Origin: a bacterium HR30
GTDB taxonomy: Bacteria > Desulfobacterota > Binatia > HRBIN30
DNA length: 43,633 nucleotides
Direction: 5' to 3'
Assembly: GCA_002898795.1 (NCBI GenBank)
Contig: BEIG01000016.1
Span: 1-43,633, forward strand
The notes below the pieces were generated by a model. It saw only the letters and a program-made list of their open reading frames with translations. It did not search any database and was not told where the DNA came from. Below, piece after piece: positions 1,743 through 33,613 of the stretch. The translations under genes were made by a program, and so were the position numbers. Each line of letters opens with the position of its first letter. Position 1 is the stretch's first letter.

Positions 1743-3452
1743 CTAGTTCCATTGCTCAGTCGAATGCTTCGTCCCTGTGGCTTTCCGGATGGTTTCCACA
1801 ATCTGAGTGCGGAGGGCCTGCCTTTCTGTGAGCGAAGAATTTTCAATCCATTCATCGATCCACTGGGGTTTGAGGCCGTGGCGGACACAAAATTCTCGCG
1901 CCAACTGGCGCAAATCCTGCGAGTAGGATGCGAAGGTAAGGCCGTCCAAGTACGCATGGGCTGCTCCGACTAGGTCGCCGATCTGCTCTCTGGCCAAGGC
2001 TAGGTGGGACCATGCCAAGTCGTCTTCGCGAGTCGCGGCAACTGCTCGCTCCAGAAGGCGGATCGCGACCTGCAGTTCACCCGCAAGACGCTCTGCAACC
2101 CCGGCGTTCGTGAGCAGGGCAGGAACGAAGTACTTCCGCACCTGGAAGGGATTGGCAAATGCAAGCCAGAGGGCAACCGCGACACTTGCCGTAAGTGCCA
2201 GGGGGTGCTGGCGCAGGTGCCTGCGGACACCGTTAGCCGTTAGTGCGGCAAGAAAGTGTCCTGCCGAGACCAAAAGAAGCGGCGCGAGCGGCAAGCGAAA
2301 GCGTCCGTTGGTGAAGAATACGCTACAGGTAACAAGCGTGCAGGCGGCAACGATCACCAAGGGAATGAAATCTCCCTTCCAACATTGCCGCCCGAAACCT
2401 GTGGCAAAACCTGCGGCGGCCAGGCACAGTACGACTCCAAAAGAAAGGGGAAATAACGGGAGACGAAACAGCCAACTGTGGCTTTGCTGCCAGGCAACGT
2501 CACCCGTGTTTGGGAGCTCGCGGTCTACCAGGGTCCAACGAAACTTCTTCCACAGAAGCCGCAGCGCTTCGCCCGGGTACTCTCGCCAGAACGCGAAGGC
2601 TTGGCCCAGGAACCAACGTTCGAGTTTTACCGGGTCGTTGCCCGAAGCTGCGCGGGCACGCTCTAGGGCGGCGCGTAATGGTACGGGCGGGAACGGATCG
2701 ACTCCATCGGCATGGGGATTATTCCCTAGCCACAGGTTGAGACCGAAGCCCGTCGTATAGGGCACGATCCTGCCAGCAGCAGCGCTCACAACCGTTGTGG
2801 CAATGAGCCACCCGAGAATGACCCAGGTTGCAAGTTGCCGGGCAGGCAAGCGCAAGCCGCCAAAGAAAACCCAGGTTACGTAAGCGACAAACGGAAGCAA
2901 GAACTCTGTCCGGAAGAGGGTGGCCGCGAGCCACAGCACACCGGCCACGTGCCAGTGTTTTCGGGACCCTGCGAACGCGGCGAGGCCAAGCAAGAGGAGC
3001 GACGCGGTGGCTGGGAGAATTTCCCCCGTGAAAAAGATGAGTGGTCCATACATCGCCGCGAGAAGACCCGTTGCCCACGCAACCCCGATCGGTACACCCC
3101 TTTGCGCGGCGAGAGCAGCGAGGAGTGTACAGCCGATGGCGTCGAGAACTGCCTGAGCAACCCGCACGGACGAGGGGTCGGCCCCGAAAAGCCTGTATAC
3201 GGCAGCTACGAAGTAAGCGTAAGCGGGTGGTTGGTCGAATGGAGGGACCGGGGGGTTACCATCGAGGATTGCTCGAGCCCAAGTGTGGTACCGCAGTGCA
3301 TTTGTTTGGAGGACAAGCGCGCTCGGGCTGTTCTGGATCGAGTGCAAGTACACAAGCCGCAGACACAAGGCGATGGTAAATACAGCACTCAGTGCTACCC
3401 ACGTTGCGCTCCTCTTCTTGGCTGCCCCAGTTTGACTCCGGCGCTTCGCCAT
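1743..3452 (-). CDS. GT39-like multi-span membrane glycosyltransferase with C-terminal TPR-like segment
   Basis: 569 aa from the ATG at 3452 (MAKRR). The frame stays open to a TTG at 3734, but that 94-residue extension is Pro/Ser-rich, abuts the divergent panE start and looks non-coding. The N-terminus has a membrane helix (residues ~14-34), then a lumenal loop with YHTWARAILDG and FDQPPAYAYFVAAVYRLFG. This layout is typical of dolichyl/polyprenyl-phosphate-sugar glycosyltransferases of the PMT/ArnT superfamily (GT39). Roughly ten further hydrophobic helices follow. The last ~120 residues are soluble and contain a TPR-like helix pair (AWSHLALAREQIGDLVGAAHAYLDGL region). It should transfer a lipid-linked sugar to protein or lipid on the outer face of the inner membrane; donor and acceptor are unknown. 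No Shine-Dalgarno decides the start. Confidence 0.75.
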   Translation of the reverse strand: MAKRRSQTGAAKKRSATWVALSAVFTIALCLRLVYLHSIQNSPSALVLQTNALRYHTWARAILDGNPPVPPFDQPPAYAYFVAAVYRLFGADPSSVRVAQAVLDAIGCTLLAALAAQRGVPIGVAWATGLLAAMYGPLIFFTGEILPATASLLLLGLAAFAGSRKHWHVAGVLWLAATLFRTEFLLPFVAYVTWVFFGGLRLPARQLATWVILGWLIATTVVSAAAGRIVPYTTGFGLNLWLGNNPHADGVDPFPPVPLRAALERARAASGNDPVKLERWFLGQAFAFWREYPGEALRLLWKKFRWTLVDRELPNTGDVAWQQSHSWLFRLPLFPLSFGVVLCLAAAGFATGFGRQCWKGDFIPLVIVAACTLVTCSVFFTNGRFRLPLAPLLLVSAGHFLAALTANGVRRHLRQHPLALTASVAVALWLAFANPFQVRKYFVPALLTNAGVAERLAGELQVAIRLLERAVAATREDDLAWSHLALAREQIGDLVGAAHAYLDGLTFASYSQDLRQLAREFCVRHGLKPQWIDEWIENSSLTERQALRTQIVETIRKATGTKHSTEQWN

Positions 3453-3734
3453 GGGCGCGGGTGTGTAATGGTCGGGGGCAATTCCTACAACGGGCCCAGC
3501 AGCGCAGAGGCAAAGTGCCAGGAAGCGGAAGGCAGGAAACGGTCTGGCACGCGAAAGGGCAAGGAAATTAGGTCCCGTATGGCTGCGGCTGGCGTTGAAT
3601 CGTGACGGCGCCGGTATGCGGGCGTCTTGCGTAAGGTCGATGCGGGGACAGGGGTGCTTGCCATTGGAGAAGAGTCGCGCCGAAACAGACGTTGGTGCTG
3701 ACAAGACGGGTGGAGGTTTGTTAATCGGGACCAA

Positions 3735-11246: not shown

Positions 11247-13670
11247 TTGCCGATGGGTTCGACAACGCGTTACATCTGCATTCACGGTCACTTCTACCAA
11301 CCCCCGCGCGAGAACCCTTGGCTCGAAGCCATTGAAGTGCAAGACTCGGCCGCTCCCTACCACGACTGGAACGAGCGGGTAACTGCAGAGTGTTACGAGC
11401 CCAACGTCTCTGCGCGAGTGCTCGACCCGCGCGGGAGAATTACCACGCTCAGGAACAATTACAGCGCCATCAGTTTCAACTTCGGACCGACCTTGCTCGC
11501 TTGGCTCGAGCGGGAGCACCCGGAACTATACGCCGAGGTCTTGCGGGCCGACGCTGAAGGGAAAGAGCGTTACGGCTGCGGTAACGCGATGGCTCAGGTG
11601 TATGGACATGCGATCTTGCCGTTGGCCTCTCCCAGAGACCAAGTGACACAAGTGCGTTGGGGCATCGAGGATTTTGTGTACCGCTTTGGCCGGGCCCCGG
11701 AGGGAATGTGGTTGCCTGAGACCGCGGTGGATGACCATGCACTTGCCGTGCTGGCCGATCACAAGATCCGTTACACCATTTTGGCCCCCCATCAGGCTAG
11801 GCGAGTTTCGTATGGAGGCGGGCCCTGGCAAGATATTCATGGAGAAGGGATCGATCCGTCGCGTCCGTACCGATGCGAACTCGGCCATGGCCGCTCCATC
11901 GTCGTTTTCTTTTACGACGGCCCACTGGCGCGGGGCATTGCCTTCGAGGGCTGGTTGCGGGATGGGCGCGCGCTTGCAGCCAAATTGGTGACCCGCGCCC
12001 TGTCGGTCCAAGAAAACGGGCTAGTGCACGTTGCCACCGATGGGGAGACGTACGGGCACCATCACCGCTTCGGAGAGATGGCGTTGGCAGCGGCGTTGGA
12101 AGCTCTAGAGCAAGACGAGCGCATCAGTTTGACCAACTACGGAGCCTATTTGCGCCACGTTGAAGTGCCAGATCGGGTGGAAGTCCGACCGTTTACGTCC
12201 TGGAGTTGTGTGCACGGGGTCGAGCGATGGCGTGCCGGATGCTCGTGCCATGCAGGACACGCTTCCTGGCAACACGAATGGAGAGGCCCGCTGCGAGAAA
12301 CGCTAGACTGGCTCAAGGGGGAGCTTGACAACCTCTTCGAACGGGAAGGAGGTCGGTATCTGACCGACCCGTGGGAGGCGCGCAACGCGTACATCCGGGT
12401 CCTGTTGCGCGATACCGACGAGGAACGAGAGTCGTTTCTGGCGCAACACGCGCGGCGCACGCTGCAGCGAGAAGAGCGTGTGCAAGTTTGGAAGCTGCTG
12501 GAAATGCAGCGGCACGCGTTGCTCATGTTCACGAGCTGCGGGTGGTTCTTCGACGATCCCAGCGGTCTCGAAACGACGCAAGTTCTCACGTACGCGGCCC
12601 GCGCGATGCAACTGGCGGAGCATTTCGGTTGCTCCTTGTTCGAAACCTTTTTGCAACGGTTGCGTCCCATGCGCAGCAACCTGCCCCAGTATCGGGATGG
12701 TGCGGATGTGTTCGAACGTCTGGTGCGCCCCCGCATGAGCGATCAGCGGCGTGTGGTCGCTCACTACGCGATGAACGCATTATTTGACCCGCCTCCGGCT
12801 GTTCAGAAGATGTACGCCTACCGCTTCGTTTCTCAGGAACGGGTGTTCGACACCGGCGGTACCCCATCGTTCTCGGCGGGAAAGGTGGAATTGTACGAGC
12901 GAGCAACAGAAGAATCGAGCCTCTTGGATTACGCCGCTGTGCACCTCGGTGGTCATGATTTTTTCTGTGTTGTCGACCATGCGCAACCAAGCCGCGACTC
13001 GACTTGGCTGCGACACATGCTGCAGACTTTTCGGACCCAGCCCATCGTCCAGTTGCTGCGGGAGCTCGAGCAGAAGTTCCCGTCCGGCCATTTCACGTTG
13101 GCTGATGTGTTCGTGGCCGAACGGCGGCGGATCCTGCATCAGATAACCAGCGAAGTGCTCGCGCGGGCAAGTCGGCTCTACGAACGGATCGTGAGGGATA
13201 ACCGACGACTGATCGAATTCCTCGTGCACAATGAGCTGGAACTTCCCGAGGAATTGCGGATTGCCATGCGTTTTGTTGTCCGGCGAAATTGGGAAACGCG
13301 CGTCCAAGAGTTTGCTGCTGGCACGGCGGAACTGGATGAACTGGTAGCCGTGGCAGACAACGCCGCTCGGTGGGCGTTGGACGTGGATAAAGAGGTCGCT
13401 GCTCAGGTGCTGGGGCGAGCCTTGGCCGATGCGGTTGCTTGCATCGGAAGTGCGCAGGGAGAAAAGTGTTACCGCCGCGCTCGGGCGATCCTCGAAGCTG
13501 GGCAACGTTTGGAACTGGCTGTAGAGCTCAGGTGGGCGCAAAATTTATTTTTTCGGTTGATCCATAACCACGATGCTGCAGCCGCAGCAATCTCACGGTC
13601 TGCGCTGCAGGAACTAGGGGAAGCTTTAGGCTTTGCGATGGACGTATGGCGCAACGACGGCGAGGGTTAG
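11247..13670 (+). CDS. GH57-family glycoside hydrolase with DUF3536 domain
   Basis: About 807 aa. The N-terminal GH57 barrel begins at YICIHGHFYQPPRENPW (motif 1, HxHxxQP-like). GMWLPETAVD (E158) matches the GH57 nucleophile motif, and HVATDGETYGHHH (D265) matches the general-acid motif. The last ~300 residues form the DUF3536 region found attached to this subfamily. There is no signal peptide, so it acts in the cytosol, presumably on alpha-glucans such as glycogen. No member I know fixes the exact linkage or product. The TTG at 11247 has an AGGAG 12 nt upstream (11230-11234); the ATG at 11253 is an alternative start giving two residues less. It is followed by acs. The sugar genes gap, pgm and glk are within 9 kb, which suggests glucan mobilisation. 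Confidence 0.85.
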   Translation: MPMGSTTRYICIHGHFYQPPRENPWLEAIEVQDSAAPYHDWNERVTAECYEPNVSARVLDPRGRITTLRNNYSAISFNFGPTLLAWLEREHPELYAEVLRADAEGKERYGCGNAMAQVYGHAILPLASPRDQVTQVRWGIEDFVYRFGRAPEGMWLPETAVDDHALAVLADHKIRYTILAPHQARRVSYGGGPWQDIHGEGIDPSRPYRCELGHGRSIVVFFYDGPLARGIAFEGWLRDGRALAAKLVTRALSVQENGLVHVATDGETYGHHHRFGEMALAAALEALEQDERISLTNYGAYLRHVEVPDRVEVRPFTSWSCVHGVERWRAGCSCHAGHASWQHEWRGPLRETLDWLKGELDNLFEREGGRYLTDPWEARNAYIRVLLRDTDEERESFLAQHARRTLQREERVQVWKLLEMQRHALLMFTSCGWFFDDPSGLETTQVLTYAARAMQLAEHFGCSLFETFLQRLRPMRSNLPQYRDGADVFERLVRPRMSDQRRVVAHYAMNALFDPPPAVQKMYAYRFVSQERVFDTGGTPSFSAGKVELYERATEESSLLDYAAVHLGGHDFFCVVDHAQPSRDSTWLRHMLQTFRTQPIVQLLRELEQKFPSGHFTLADVFVAERRRILHQITSEVLARASRLYERIVRDNRRLIEFLVHNELELPEELRIAMRFVVRRNWETRVQEFAAGTAELDELVAVADNAARWALDVDKEVAAQVLGRALADAVACIGSAQGEKCYRRARAILEAGQRLELAVELRWAQNLFFRLIHNHDAAAAAISRSALQELGEALGFAMDVWRNDGEG

Positions 13671-29045: not shown

Positions 29046-30623
29046 ATGCTGAAAGCAGAAAATATTGGCGATTTGTTGCGAGAAGCGGCAAAGCGCGACC
29101 CTGGAGCTACCGCGTTTCGCTACCGGAGCGAAACCGTCACGTATGGAGATTGGTCAGCCTGGGCAGACCGACTGGCCGGCTTCTATTGGTCGCAAGGGTT
29201 GAGGCCTGGGGATGTTGTCGCTTTGCTTCTGCCCTCCACGCCGTTTTACCTAGTTGCGTACCTCGGTGCCGCACGGGTGGGACTGGTGACCGCCGGCATC
29301 AACCTTCGCTATCGCCGGCGAGAGATTCTGGCGATTCTCGGGCGTAGCCAAGCCCGGCTTCTGCTGGCAGCACGGCGTGGCCACGAGGGGATGGACTTCC
29401 AAGCTCTCGTCGAAGCAGAACGGAGCAACCTTCCAAACTTAGAACGTTGCTATTGGTTCGACGAGCCAGAATTCATCGACACTCGGGGGTTGATCGAGCG
29501 GCTGTGCCAAGGGGCGGAGGCTGCTCCAGCGCTGGCGGTCGACGGAGATCAACCAGTGGCGATTGTTTTCACCAGCGGCACAACGGGCGCTCCCAAAGGG
29601 GCTTGTTACCTTCACCGCAACCTACTGGCGTTGGCGGAAATCGAGAATCGGCGGTACGAGGCTGGCCTAGAACCTGTGCGGAAGCACCTCGCGGCTGGGG
29701 TGTCGTTCGCGCACCTCGGGACAATGGCGCGCATTGGAGTGCAAATCAGCCAGATGAGCATGTCCATTATTCACGACCGTTTCGATCCAAGCCTCGTCCT
29801 GGCTATGATTGCAGGAGAAAGGCTCCCGCACCTTGGTGCTTTTCCCACGCAGATGATCGCGTTACTGGATCACCCTCAACGCAGCCAATTCGATCTTAGC
29901 TCTTTGCGGAGCGTACTGTTGGGAGGTGCCCCCGTTGCCCCCGAGCTGATTCAGCGGGTCCAGCGAGAGTTGGGCGCGACGGTGAGTGTTCGGTATTCCT
30001 CGACCGAGATCGGCATCGCCACGGCTTCTCTCCCAAGCGACCCGCCACAAATGCTTTGTGAGACGGTCGGCAAGCCCACGCCCGGCGTGGAGTTGCGGAT
30101 CGTGGACGGAAACAACCTACCGCTGCCTGCCGGCGAGGTGGGAGAAGTGGTTGTCCGGTCCCCTGCCACCATGGTGGGTTATTGGAACGACCTGGAAGCA
30201 ACTCGCCGAACGATCGACCAGGAAGGTTGGGTGCATACCGGGGACCTAGGGTTTTTAGATGAGGCCGGGTACCTGCACTTACGTGGTCGCATGAGCGAGA
30301 TGTACATCCGTGGCGGATTCAACGTGTATCCCATGGAGGTAGAAAATCTTCTGCTTCACCACCCAAAGGTGGCGCGGGCGGCGGTGGTTGCTGTTCCGGA
30401 CTCTCGACTGGGGGAGATTGGTTGGGCCTTCGTCGTGCCGAAACACCGTGACGACCCGCCCACACTAGAGGAGCTGCGCCGGTTCATCGGGCGTGAACTT
30501 GCGAGCTTCAAGCGGCCGGATGGTCTGACAATCCTTGACGACATGCCCCAGACCGCGATGTTCAAGCCCGACAAGCGAGCCCTGCGAGAGCTCTGGCAGC
30601 AACGTCGAGCCTCGGAGAGGTAA
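29046..30623 (+). CDS. Acyl-CoA ligase (AMP-forming, ANL superfamily)
   Basis: 525 aa. FTSGTTGAPKGACYLHRN (about residue 178 on) is the ATP loop. VRYSSTEIGIA is the acyl/AMP-binding motif, and WVHTGDLGFLDEAGYLHLRGRMSEMYIRGG is the hinge. The C-terminal catalytic Lys lies in PQTAMFKPDKRALREL; the residue before it is Phe rather than Gly, which is unusual but retains the Lys. It activates a free acid to its CoA ester. It is divergent from the CaiB operon (about 100-bp gap), which could use its product as CoA donor or acceptor, and it precedes the DedA gene by 27 nt. The substrate is unknown. It differs from the ligase at 6516 in most motifs, so it is not a recent duplicate. Confidence 0.88.
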   Translation: MLKAENIGDLLREAAKRDPGATAFRYRSETVTYGDWSAWADRLAGFYWSQGLRPGDVVALLLPSTPFYLVAYLGAARVGLVTAGINLRYRRREILAILGRSQARLLLAARRGHEGMDFQALVEAERSNLPNLERCYWFDEPEFIDTRGLIERLCQGAEAAPALAVDGDQPVAIVFTSGTTGAPKGACYLHRNLLALAEIENRRYEAGLEPVRKHLAAGVSFAHLGTMARIGVQISQMSMSIIHDRFDPSLVLAMIAGERLPHLGAFPTQMIALLDHPQRSQFDLSSLRSVLLGGAPVAPELIQRVQRELGATVSVRYSSTEIGIATASLPSDPPQMLCETVGKPTPGVELRIVDGNNLPLPAGEVGEVVVRSPATMVGYWNDLEATRRTIDQEGWVHTGDLGFLDEAGYLHLRGRMSEMYIRGGFNVYPMEVENLLLHHPKVARAAVVAVPDSRLGEIGWAFVVPKHRDDPPTLEELRRFIGRELASFKRPDGLTILDDMPQTAMFKPDKRALRELWQQRRASER

Positions 30624-30650
30624 TCCGCCCCGTGGTCTCGGGGAAAGCCG

Positions 30651-31226
30651 ATGCAAGTCGACACGTTCCTGGCAAAGTACGGTTTGCTTGCAGCGTACAC
30701 GGGTAGCGTTTTCGAAGGCGATACGGTGATGTTGATTGCGGGAGGACTCTCACGCTACGGCCTGCTTTCGTGGGTTGGTGTCTGGGCCGCGGGAATAGCG
30801 GGAGCAGCCACAGCTGATATCGCATGTTACTGGCTTGGTCGGCTAGGGCAGCGATCGTCCGTAGCGGGGCGCTTCAGGAAATTGGCTCGTGCTATCGACA
30901 AATATGGACTCTGGGAAATCCCCCTAGCCCGCTTGGTTCCAGGGACGCGCGTAGCCAGCATGGTGTTTTGGGGCTCCAGGGGACTACACTTCAACACATT
31001 TCTCCTACTGGACTTGCTCGGGTGTACCTTGTGGGCTGGCTTGTTCGCGGGCTGTGGCTGGTTTCTGGCCGTTCAAGTGGAGACACTGCTACCCGCATTG
31101 CATCGCTTCGAACACCGGCTGATGACGCTCGCCATCGTTGCCGCTACGAGCTTAGTCGTGGCGCGATATGTTCTCCGCCGGCGCCGGCGCCTCGGCAGCC
31201 CAACGGCTAGCCGACTACAAGGCTGA
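30651..31226 (+). CDS. DedA/VTT-family membrane protein
   Basis: 191 aa. AYTGSVFEGDTVMLIAGGLSRYG matches the first DedA motif (E-x-D and the re-entrant loop). PLARLVPGTRVASMVFWGSRG matches the F/LxR...PG.R motif. There are about five hydrophobic stretches, and the C-terminus is basic (VLRRRRRL). The family comprises inner-membrane proteins related to undecaprenyl-phosphate or phosphatidylethanolamine flippases and to proton-driven transport. The exact job here is not known. The ATG follows a GGGGAAAG-like site. It lies 27 nt behind the acyl-CoA ligase, probably cotranscribed. Confidence 0.88.
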   Translation: MQVDTFLAKYGLLAAYTGSVFEGDTVMLIAGGLSRYGLLSWVGVWAAGIAGAATADIACYWLGRLGQRSSVAGRFRKLARAIDKYGLWEIPLARLVPGTRVASMVFWGSRGLHFNTFLLLDLLGCTLWAGLFAGCGWFLAVQVETLLPALHRFEHRLMTLAIVAATSLVVARYVLRRRRRLGSPTASRLQG

Positions 31227-31605
31227 GCGATTTAGTGGAGAAAGGTGATGCAGCCAAACGCTTGAAACAAGATCCGGAAAGCTTAGCGGCTCGGTTCGTT
31301 GCACCGACAGCGGAAGCGCCTTGGTCATCGGTAGGTAGCACTAAAAGCACACTGTTAGGCTGCTTTCGGGGCTCAGGTTGGTGCATCAGTCCTTCGGAAC
31401 ACTGAACTTGCAATCCGAACGGACCGCGCGGTTTTCGCTCGTATACCCCAGGGTGTCCAGTCAGTTGCGAGCACCGCATTTTTCCTGCGCGTGGTTTCAC
31501 TTAGGTCGCAACCCCACCGGGGACGCGCGAGGGCGTAGCTAGCGCGCTTCACTGGTACATGGTCACTAAGGATCTTATGTGCGCTACCCACGTCGCCCGC
31601 GTATC
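31227..31605. other. Gene-poor spacer between DedA gene and repeat array
   Basis: No frame shows a recognised domain. Some stretches look compositionally like coding but are broken by stops in all frames. No repeat unit or tRNA is recognisable until the GTAG hairpin array begins at 31606. Confidence 0.5.
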
Positions 31606-31917
31606 GTAGGGGCGGACGGCAGTCCGCCCGCGGTCCCGCGAGCACCTACGTTCCCACCTCAACCCGAACCCCACCCATGCAGTAGGGGCGCATGGCGATG
31701 CACCCGTGTCGCCGTCACCGCCCTCGTCGCCGTGTGCCACAGGGGCACTGCTGCCCCGATGTAGGAACGCACGGCAGTGTACCCGTAGTGCCACGAGCGT
31801 CCACGTTGCCGTTTTAACCCGAACCCCACCGCCACGCGGTAGGGGCGCATGGCAATGCGCCCTTGTCTCCATCACCACCCGAGTTTTCGTATGTGCCACG
31901 TGCACCGTGACACGATG
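31606..31917. repeat. REP/BIME-like tandem array: four ~78-bp units, each GTAG + hairpin
   Basis: Units start at 31606, 31682, 31761 and 31839 (spacing 76, 79 and 78 bp). Each opens with GTAG and a palindrome with 8-bp arms around GGCA or GGCG. Unit 1 has arms GGGCGGAC/GTCCGCCC (31610-31629). Unit 2 has GGGCGCAT/ATGCACCC (31686-31705). Unit 3 is eroded (31764-31784). Unit 4 has perfect GGGCGCAT/ATGCGCCC (31843-31862). Units 1 and 3 share one spacer (CGAGC, ACGTT, then AACCCGAACCCCACC). Units 2 and 4 share another (a CACC-rich stretch, then TGTGCCAC), giving a ~155-bp higher order. A further hairpin, GGGGCA/TGCCCC, is at 31742-31757. A 5' GTAG head plus a hairpin is the hallmark of REP sequences moved by RAYT transposases. 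No RAYT gene is in the window. Confidence 0.75.
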
Positions 31918-31933
31918 GGAAACTAGGGTGTAA

Positions 31934-32005
31934 TGGTCCCAAGGGGATTCGAACCCCTGTTACCGACGTGAGAGGCCGGCGTCCTAACCGCTAGACGATG
32001 GGACC
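31934..32005 (-). tRNA. tRNA-Glu(CTC)
   Basis: On the minus strand: acceptor GGTCCCA pairs with TGGGACC, discriminator A, D-arm GTCTAGCGGTTAGGAC, anticodon stem CCGGC/GTCGG with loop CTCTCAC (anticodon CTC, reading GAG), T-arm GGGGTTCGAATCCCC. CCA is not encoded. It is the last gene of the gltX - tRNA-Gln - tRNA-Glu run, and the hairpin array begins 17 bp beyond its 3' end. Confidence 0.95.
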
Positions 32006-32060
32006 GATCATGAACGACAACGCGGCCGAGCGACAGGCCGCCGCCCGGCCGCCTGCTGAG

Positions 32061-32133
32061 CTGAGGAGGTAGGACTCGAACCTACAATCGCCTGATCCAG
32101 AGTCAGGTGGCTTGCCAATTAGCCGACTCCTCA
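32061..32133 (-). tRNA. tRNA-Gln(CTG)
   Basis: On the minus strand: acceptor TGAGGAG pairs with CTCCTCA, discriminator G, D-arm GGCTAATTGGCAAGCC, anticodon stem CCTGA/TCAGG with loop CTCTGGA (anticodon CTG), T-arm TAGGTTCGAGTCCTA. CCA is not encoded. It lies 43 bp past the gltX stop and 55 bp before tRNA-Glu, in the same direction, so one transcript could carry all three. The anticodon reads CAG. Confidence 0.95.
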
Positions 32134-32176
32134 ACAAACTCAGCGAGCCTTCAATTAAGCGGAGAGCCGCTGCGAG

Positions 32177-33613
32177 TCAAGTTGTGGCCGACGCGCCCGA
32201 AGACCCGAGTTGCTTGGCTAGCGTCAATGCCCGATCCAACCGGTTCAACGTCTGGGCTTTGCCGAGCACATCGAGCACCTCGAAGATGCCTGGGCTTACG
32301 GTGCCGCCTGTGACCGCAACCCGCACCGGCTGTGCGATCTTGCCGAGACCCAGACCAAACTCGTTCAAAACCCGTTCGAACGCTGCCTGAATCGTTTCGC
32401 CACACCAGTTTTCTTCCGCAGCAAGGAGTTCCCTTAGGCGTTCCAGGGCGGGAATTACGTCTGGTTTGAGGAAATGCTTTCGGATTAGCTCCGGAGGAAT
32501 CTCGATGGCGTCGGTAAGGTAAAAGCGCCCGAGTTCGACGAGCTCAACAAGCGTTTTCGCGCGCTCCTGCAGCGTAGCCACCATTTTTGCAAGCCACGCT
32601 TCGTCCCCCGGCAAATTGTACCCTTTGGCAGCAATGAACGGCTTCACGGCGAGTGCCAACTCGTGCGACGGTGTGCTCTTCATGTAATGGAAGTTCACCC
32701 ACTCCAGCTTCTCTGCGTTGTAGACCCCCGCCGACTTTCCGACATGCTCCAGGGAAAATTTTTCGATCAACTCCTGCCGGGTAAAAATTTCCTGATCCCC
32801 ATGCGACCAGCCGAGGCGCGCCAGATAGTTCACCAGAGCGTCGGGAAGGTAGCCCATATCTCGATAGGCCAAAACGGAAGTGGCACCGTGGCGCTTGCTG
32901 AGCCGGGTCCGGTCCGGGCCCAAAATTTGGGGTAGATGAGCGAAGGCCGGAAGGGGATAGTCGAGCGCGCGGTAGATGAGAATTTGCTTCGGCGTGTTTG
33001 CAAGATGATCGTCCCCACGAATCACGTGGCTAATCCGCATGAGGGCGTCATCGACCACGACACAAAGATTATACGTGGGGCTTCCGTCGGAGCGAACGAT
33101 GATCAGGTCGTCCAGCTCAGAGTTTTCGAACACCACGTGGCCCTTGACCAAGTCCTCCACAATCGTCACGCCTTCGAGTGGCGCTTTGAAACGAACAGCG
33201 TACGGTTGGTTTGGATGTTCCACAGTGCGCTGCCGGCAAGTCCGGTCGTACATGGGCTTGCGGCCAGCCTTTAATGCTTGCTCCCGCTTGGCCTCGAGTT
33301 CCTCTTGGCTGCAATAGCAACGGTATGCGTGGCCCGACGCAAGCAAACGTTCGGCGTGCTCCAGATAAAGGGCAAGGCGCTCACTTTGGTAGTACGGCCC
33401 CTCGTCCCACTCGAGCTTGAGCCAGAGCATGGCGTCTAAAATTGCCTGGATCGATTCCGGTGTGGACCGCTCGCGGTCGGTGTCCTCGATGCGAAGGACA
33501 AACTGCCCACCGTGATGTCGCGCAAACAAGTAGTTGAAAAGCGCTGTGCGGGCTCCTCCTAGGTGAAGGTAACCGGTGGGGCTTGGTGCGAACCGGGTGC
33601 GAACCGTACTCAT
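32177..33613 (-). CDS. gltX: Glutamyl-tRNA synthetase
   Basis: 478 aa, normal bacterial length. TRFAPSPTGYLHLGGARTALFN contains the HIGH-type motif (HLGG). RIEDTDRERS is the glutamate-binding segment, and RLSKRHGATSV is the KMSKS-type loop (L-S-K-R). The C-terminal helical anticodon-binding half is complete. It attaches Glu to tRNA-Glu in the cytosol. Many bacteria lacking GlnRS use a non-discriminating GltX that also charges tRNA-Gln before GatCAB amidation; sequence alone cannot settle which type this is. Having tRNA-Gln and tRNA-Glu directly downstream is consistent with either coordinated supply or dual charging. The start ATG is at 33613. Confidence 0.96.
   Translation of the reverse strand: MSTVRTRFAPSPTGYLHLGGARTALFNYLFARHHGGQFVLRIEDTDRERSTPESIQAILDAMLWLKLEWDEGPYYQSERLALYLEHAERLLASGHAYRCYCSQEELEAKREQALKAGRKPMYDRTCRQRTVEHPNQPYAVRFKAPLEGVTIVEDLVKGHVVFENSELDDLIIVRSDGSPTYNLCVVVDDALMRISHVIRGDDHLANTPKQILIYRALDYPLPAFAHLPQILGPDRTRLSKRHGATSVLAYRDMGYLPDALVNYLARLGWSHGDQEIFTRQELIEKFSLEHVGKSAGVYNAEKLEWVNFHYMKSTPSHELALAVKPFIAAKGYNLPGDEAWLAKMVATLQERAKTLVELVELGRFYLTDAIEIPPELIRKHFLKPDVIPALERLRELLAAEENWCGETIQAAFERVLNEFGLGLGKIAQPVRVAVTGGTVSPGIFEVLDVLGKAQTLNRLDRALTLAKQLGSSGASATT

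Follow-up and report, generated by a model that had tools for sequence, protein, structure and literature searches.

The array of four hairpins that lies beside a tRNA-Glu gene in the stretch of DNA analyzed here (43,633 nucleotides; referred to as the window) is a cluster of GTAG-type REPs. REPs are short GTAG-footed hairpins that are recognized in single-stranded form by HUH/Y1 tyrosine transposases (RAYT, TnpA_REP). The explanation that we regard as highly probable is a lineage-specific family of such REPs, which was dispersed by a RAYT, most likely of subclass 2.4, and was then locally copied head-to-tail. Compared by description with the GTAG super-family (Di Nocera et al. 2013, PMC3733652), it represents a new family within a known class: that source gives the same GTAG foot, genome-wide copies, and clusters, a stem of 6-13 bp (8 bp here), and GTAG as the stop codon of a neighboring gene (the C115 RAYT here, see below). 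A preliminary description had read the array as “BIME-like” REPs of the GTAG/RAYT kind with a tie to tRNA-Glu. The assignment to the GTAG/RAYT kind was supported by genome-wide copies, by RAYT genes, and by covariation at the innermost stem pair, while the other two parts of this interpretation were not sustained.

Four GTAG-headed units of ~78 bp, all on the + strand, followed one another in steps of 76, 79, and 78 bp (Table 1), as previously proposed. The arms paired at 8/8 positions in units 1 and 4 and at 7/8 in unit 2. Folding as DNA agreed with this pairing: the MFE values of units 1 and 4 were -10.9 and -10.6 kcal/mol, respectively (0/200 shuffles as stable), that of unit 2 was weaker at -4.8 kcal/mol (29/200), and that of unit 3 was -1.4 kcal/mol (134/200), confirming that unit 3 is eroded and unit 4 perfect. 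The entire 312-nt array as a single folded strand was unremarkable (z -1.67; 6/100 shuffles as stable). The proposed alternation of two spacer types was also reproduced, giving a higher-order repeat of ~155 bp (A-B-A-B) in which spacer 1 corresponded to spacer 3 and spacer 2 to spacer 4 (z values in Table 1); the z values of the remaining pairs were -0.2 (1-2), -0.3 (1-4), 2.7 (2-3), and 1.5 (3-4). The small additional hairpin of the first B spacer was broken by gaps when both B spacers were aligned. Unit 1, its spacer, and the start of unit 2 together showed an 81% match to G000:C120:10353-10467. A strict scan of the 43.6-kb window for GTAG plus a palindrome returned units 1 and 4 and a weaker site at 12767, and 10 simulated windows gave 0-1 site each. 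The array was not reported by Tandem Repeats Finder at a score of 40.

Table 1. Features of the array and its surroundings (positions in the window).
Feature	Position	Strand	Remarks
REP unit 1	31606..31629	+	GTAG foot, perfect 8-bp stem, GGCA loop, arms GGGCGGAC/GTCCGCCC
Spacer type A, copy 1	31630..31681	+	70% identity to spacer 3, z 5.9
REP unit 2	31682..31705	+	GTAG foot, stem with 1 mismatch, GGCG loop
Spacer type B, copy 1	31706..31760	+	67% identity to spacer 4, z 5.9
Extra small hairpin GGGGCA/TGCCCC in the first B spacer	31740..31757	+	MFE -6.7, 5/200 shuffles as stable
REP unit 3, eroded	31761..31784	+	4 mismatches to the family consensus; begins GTAG
Spacer type A, copy 2	31785..31838	+	Spacer alignment
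REP unit 4, exact family member GTAGGGGCGCATGGCAATGCGCCC	31839..31862	+	Perfect 8-bp stem, GGCA loop
Spacer type B, copy 2, end of the array	31863..31917	+	Spacer alignment
tRNA-Glu(CTC)	31934..32005	-	Context; found in both congeners without the array
Lineage-specific stretch, ~0.7 kb, blurred edges	31255..31930	.	Missing at the syntenic place in both congeners

A whole-genome search, as suggested in the preliminary description, placed these units in a large dispersed family. The consensus GTAGGGGCGCAYGGCVRTGCGCCC gave 117 strand hits (48 on + and 69 on -) at ≤2 mismatches in the 3.73-Mb assembly, whereas the reversed control gave 0 under the same threshold. Of these hits, 111 fell inside 35 stretches (158,979 bases in total, including the window) selected for having hits. 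These stretches contained 127 distinct sites at ≤5 mismatches, 105 of which were within 2 mismatches and 86 exact; simulated sequence of equal size yielded 1 hit at ≤5 mismatches over three runs together. A GTAG foot was present at 110/127 sites, including all 4 units of the window, and a perfect 8-bp stem at 99/127. The pairs at the stem base (5/24, 6/23, and 7/22) were G-C in 122, 115, and 123 of the 127 sites, respectively, the three consecutive G-C pairs that characterize subclass 2.4. Since the assembly consists of 211 contigs, several of which end in REP clusters, the true number of copies is at least as high as that counted, and the assembly may lack the active RAYT. Clusters were seen within a few hundred bases of the ends of contigs C12, C18, C38, C55, C120, C145, C149, and C157, and these positions suggest that REP repeats break the assembly. 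Exact strand hits numbered 87 in this genome, 12 in the sister species (G002), and 0 in the other congener (G001); among the other 55 genomes, three had 2, 2, and 4. The exact 24-mer was also found in at least 80 named loci belonging, by title, to many phyla, which include Chloroflexota, cyanobacteria, Armatimonadetes, Myxococcales, and Bacteroidetes among the matches listed.

The arms of the hairpin covary at the innermost stem pair, because this pair was C-G at 72 and T-A at 44 of the 127 sites, against 11 at which it was broken (Fisher p 1e-22 for the 126 sites with C/T and G/A, a value uncorrected for descent). Two old sub-lineages or hairpin-templated correction may give the same pattern. 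The compensating arm change that had been pointed out in unit 1 (C-G to G-C) occurred at 1/127 sites, namely in unit 1 alone; recurrent covariation was seen at the innermost pair.

RAYT genes, the other object of the suggested search, were present in the genome: Y1_Tnp matches were located on C93, C115, C46, and C28. The C93 gene scored 98.7 against a cut-off of 80 for the NCBIfam REP-associated tyrosine transposase, and its protein matched PDB 4er8 (TnpA_REP; 4.7e-7). Five other proteins, three from this genome and one each from loci L101 and L090 (see below), matched the same NCBIfam family with scores under the cut-off. A profile built from these five (referred to as A1) gave 7 matches at 5 places in this genome (C28, C115, C46, C2, and C75), some of them broken, had matches in 18 of 58 genomes (this one included), and reached PDB 4er8 at 3.4e-4; a comparison of the C115 protein alone with PDB sequences found nothing. 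Neither a genome devoid of further copies and RAYT genes nor arms without covariation was found, the two outcomes by which the preliminary description was to be judged.

The C93 RAYT had an exact family REP ~0.3 kb on its 3' side and a 4-mismatch member ~0.65 kb on its 5' side. The C115 RAYT was followed by a 3-mismatch member, the GTAG of which supplied its stop codon. The A1-type genes on C28, C115, and C46 carried other REP types inside (GCAGACC, CGGGTTT, and CACGGCAT), and none of the RAYTs of this genome had exact family members close by on either flank at once. Several further repeats were seen near these genes. Upstream of the C93 RAYT (L009, ~770-1210), the repeat GGAGTGCGAAAGCCATGCTTTCGCGGGCATCGCGTCAGCGATGCC occurred ~3 times by eye, and some of the ~300-bp REP-ended elements described below carried it at their center. 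A second REP family, GTAGGGGCAGACC..GTCTGCCCC, formed dense arrays at G000:C54:20031-21107 (L147) and C28:2427-3327 (L017), partly in exact 64-bp steps and mixed with an inverted GGCGCACC type, and was also present within the linker of the C28 RAYT. At G000:C2:1433-3290 (L143), seven GCGACCC-type palindromes, at least 3 of them double-foot (GTAG..CTAC), lay around and in a RAYT gene that is divided between two reading frames.

The link between this REP and RAYTs was closer in other genomes. An A1-type RAYT in the sister species (G002, C24:3305-3854) contained an exact REP in the part that separates its HUH region from its Tyr region, and was flanked on both sides by 2-mismatch members. This gene is the most telling REP-RAYT link; since it is broken into two frames, its activity is doubtful. 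In L101, from a KSB1 bacterium, exact copies likewise preceded a C115-like RAYT gene and lay within it. In L090, from Myroides, another such gene had three exact copies upstream, all in direct order, with a masked stretch intervening. These were the 2 loci with C115 RAYT matches, searched for with the C115 type alone, out of the 80 among the exact 24-mer matches listed. In L090 (Myroides sp. 1354; 2872-3640), the region upstream of the RAYT consisted of a ~178-bp direct-order repeat with the 24-mer, partly N, which also held smaller degenerate hairpins. No match to the C93 RAYT was detected in G002 at E≤0.001. Because G002 nevertheless has REPs (12 exact copies), the C93 RAYT is weakened as the sole cognate. 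The family is accordingly found in association with RAYTs, as expected of GTAG-type REPs, with a putative cognate in its own genome. We infer from these sequences that a RAYT moved the family, most likely one of subclass 2.4.

Assignment of the RAYTs to a subclass was based on the linker between the HUH and Tyr regions. At least one in-frame palindrome (arm ≥8) was present in 16 of 18 open linkers of A1-type RAYTs, compared with a codon-shuffle expectation of 0.64 of 18; the 240 bp just before held such palindromes in 0/18. These 18 linkers, drawn from 30 loci of which 12 unparsed ones were left out, are not independent: two of them (L200 and L218) had served as search seeds, and another two (L207 and L209) hardly differ from each other. 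Excluded from this count were L101 and L090, both chosen earlier for their nearness to the REP. The REP of the array itself was found in a RAYT linker only in L101 (in frame) and in G002 (the broken gene). According to PMC6006769, in-frame linker palindromes are a mark of TnpA_REP subclass 2.4, which, as quoted there, equals RAYT group 4. Since that source already reports REPs in the linkers of this subclass, they were not retained as a novelty. With the RAYTs assigned by motifs, the REP family of the array probably belongs to a subclass 2.4 system. It differs from what is described in PMC6006769 in its host, presumably Candidatus Binatota, and in that the own-genome cognate RAYT is a presumptive one.

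Within the 35 hit-selected stretches, neighboring sites ≤700 bp apart (84 pairs) were in direct order in 63 cases, against 13 pairs with the GTAGs outside and 8 with the GTAGs inside. The spacing was 75-82 bp for 35 of the 63 direct-order neighbors, and these 35 units consisted of the REP and a common tail consensus of ~54 bp. A tail on the 3' side of isolated copies exceeded the 99th percentile of shuffles in 23/39, and something tail-like was also found upstream in 14/39. Eight elements of 286-303 bp had a unit at either end with GTAG outside. By the definitions in PMC2817692 and PMC3116915 (Bertels and Rainey 2011), a BIME consists of REPs in alternating orientations, and a REPIN of two REPs in inverted orientation, an arrangement that accounted for 93% of the doublets in the latter study. 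The array resembles BIMEs in being a REP cluster with conserved inter-REP sequence, and REPINs in being RAYT-linked, with ordered tandem clusters including flanks also described there. However, all four units of the array run in one direction, and inverted pairs made up just 21 of the 84 neighbor pairs, against 63 direct ones. Since orientation defines both BIMEs and REPINs and direct order prevails here, membership in either was ruled out, and the label “BIME-like” was withdrawn. The direct-order arrangement is somewhat unusual, but not new in kind.

Spacers were more alike within clusters (identity 0.76; 17 pairs) than between them (0.57; 578 pairs; shuffled, 0.45), and because some clusters had common blocks of 300-700 bp, exceeding the unit, recombination also spreads units. 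These two observations, together with the other REP types borne by the own A1-type RAYTs on C28, C115, and C46, would suit an origin by tandem duplication and recombination (slippage, unequal crossing-over, and segmental duplication) without any transposition, the RAYTs being bystanders. We consider this unlikely. Such an origin does not readily account for solitary copies scattered over many contigs (a single site in 14 of 48 clusters), and the GTAG foot common to the family and to RAYT substrates, as well as the exact copies in or beside the RAYT genes of G002, L101, and L090, argue against it. The ends of HSPs point weakly in the same direction: 0.62 of 2 lay in or near REPs, versus 0.28 of 2 at random, in matches that were REP-seeded. 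A different mode of amplification, also improbable in our estimation, would make the one-directional REP and tail of ~78 nt the amplifying entity itself: cleavage by a RAYT at one REP and at the next would free a single-strand circle of one period, which would insert beside another REP. If so, arrays would grow by exact periods and units would pass between arrays.

The surroundings of the array differed from those in both congeners. The array forms the right half of the ~0.7-kb lineage-specific stretch, the left half of which (31200-31604) gave no hit at any other place when the genus's three genomes were searched. The interval between the point where the ligase match stops and the tRNA was 1334 bp here versus 661 bp in G002 (673 bp shorter), and 1348 bp here versus 657 bp in G001 (691 bp shorter). 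Comparison of these two congeners suggests, as the simpler reading, that the array was gained here rather than lost twice. The VTT-domain gene beside tRNA-Glu (30651-31226 in the window) looked degraded by alignment in G002 (L168, G002:C10). The proximity to the 3' end of the tRNA had been correctly noted, but it is the end, not the start, of the array that lies 16 bp away. Because G001 and G002 both retain the tRNA-Glu/tRNA-Gln gene pair at this locus but lack the array, this neighborhood looks incidental. Hairpins situated 16 bp and more beyond the 3' end of a tRNA could be imagined as a functional element of that locus (processing, 3' end stability, or termination) kept by selection, and roles of REPs in termination and mRNA stabilization are hypothesized in PMC3733652. 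Such a function is very improbable: besides the tRNA pair without the array in both congeners, on which it was dropped, there are an eroded unit 3 and ~100 copies elsewhere in the genome. Moreover, the only terminator-like site between 31226 and 32180 lay outside the array, with no excess over shuffles. An Rfam search of 30500-33000 gave both tRNAs above the gathering score and otherwise sub-threshold matches over tRNA-Glu. The regular spacing of palindromic units might speak for a CRISPR-like array, or for another kind in which every spacer is unique. This reading has a negligible probability and was ruled out by the conserved spacers, since a consensus common to several loci was looked for and found and the repeat proper covers 24 bp of a 78-bp homologous unit.

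In the preferred explanation, dispersal by a RAYT followed by local copying, a RAYT most likely of subclass 2.4 (RAYT group 4) would have spread the family through the genome, the landed unit being the 24-bp REP with its conserved tail of ~54 bp. Local copying would then have turned landed units into arrays in head-to-tail order, and larger exchanges would have been superimposed on this; slippage or unequal exchange may account for this local growth. In the window, an A-B pair would have formed first and then been duplicated. No host function need be assumed for the array.

A search of open-licence papers found none on repeats or transposition in Binatota. The array is genuine, though ordinary in most respects, and by itself leaves the general picture of REPs unchanged. 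Its contribution is a REP family from what is presumably Candidatus Binatota, expanded in one species (87 exact hits versus 12 and 0 in its congeners) and sitting alongside RAYT genes that carry in-frame REPs. Since direct-order units outnumber inverted pairs in this family, it offers a natural comparison for the question of what the replicating unit of REPs is.
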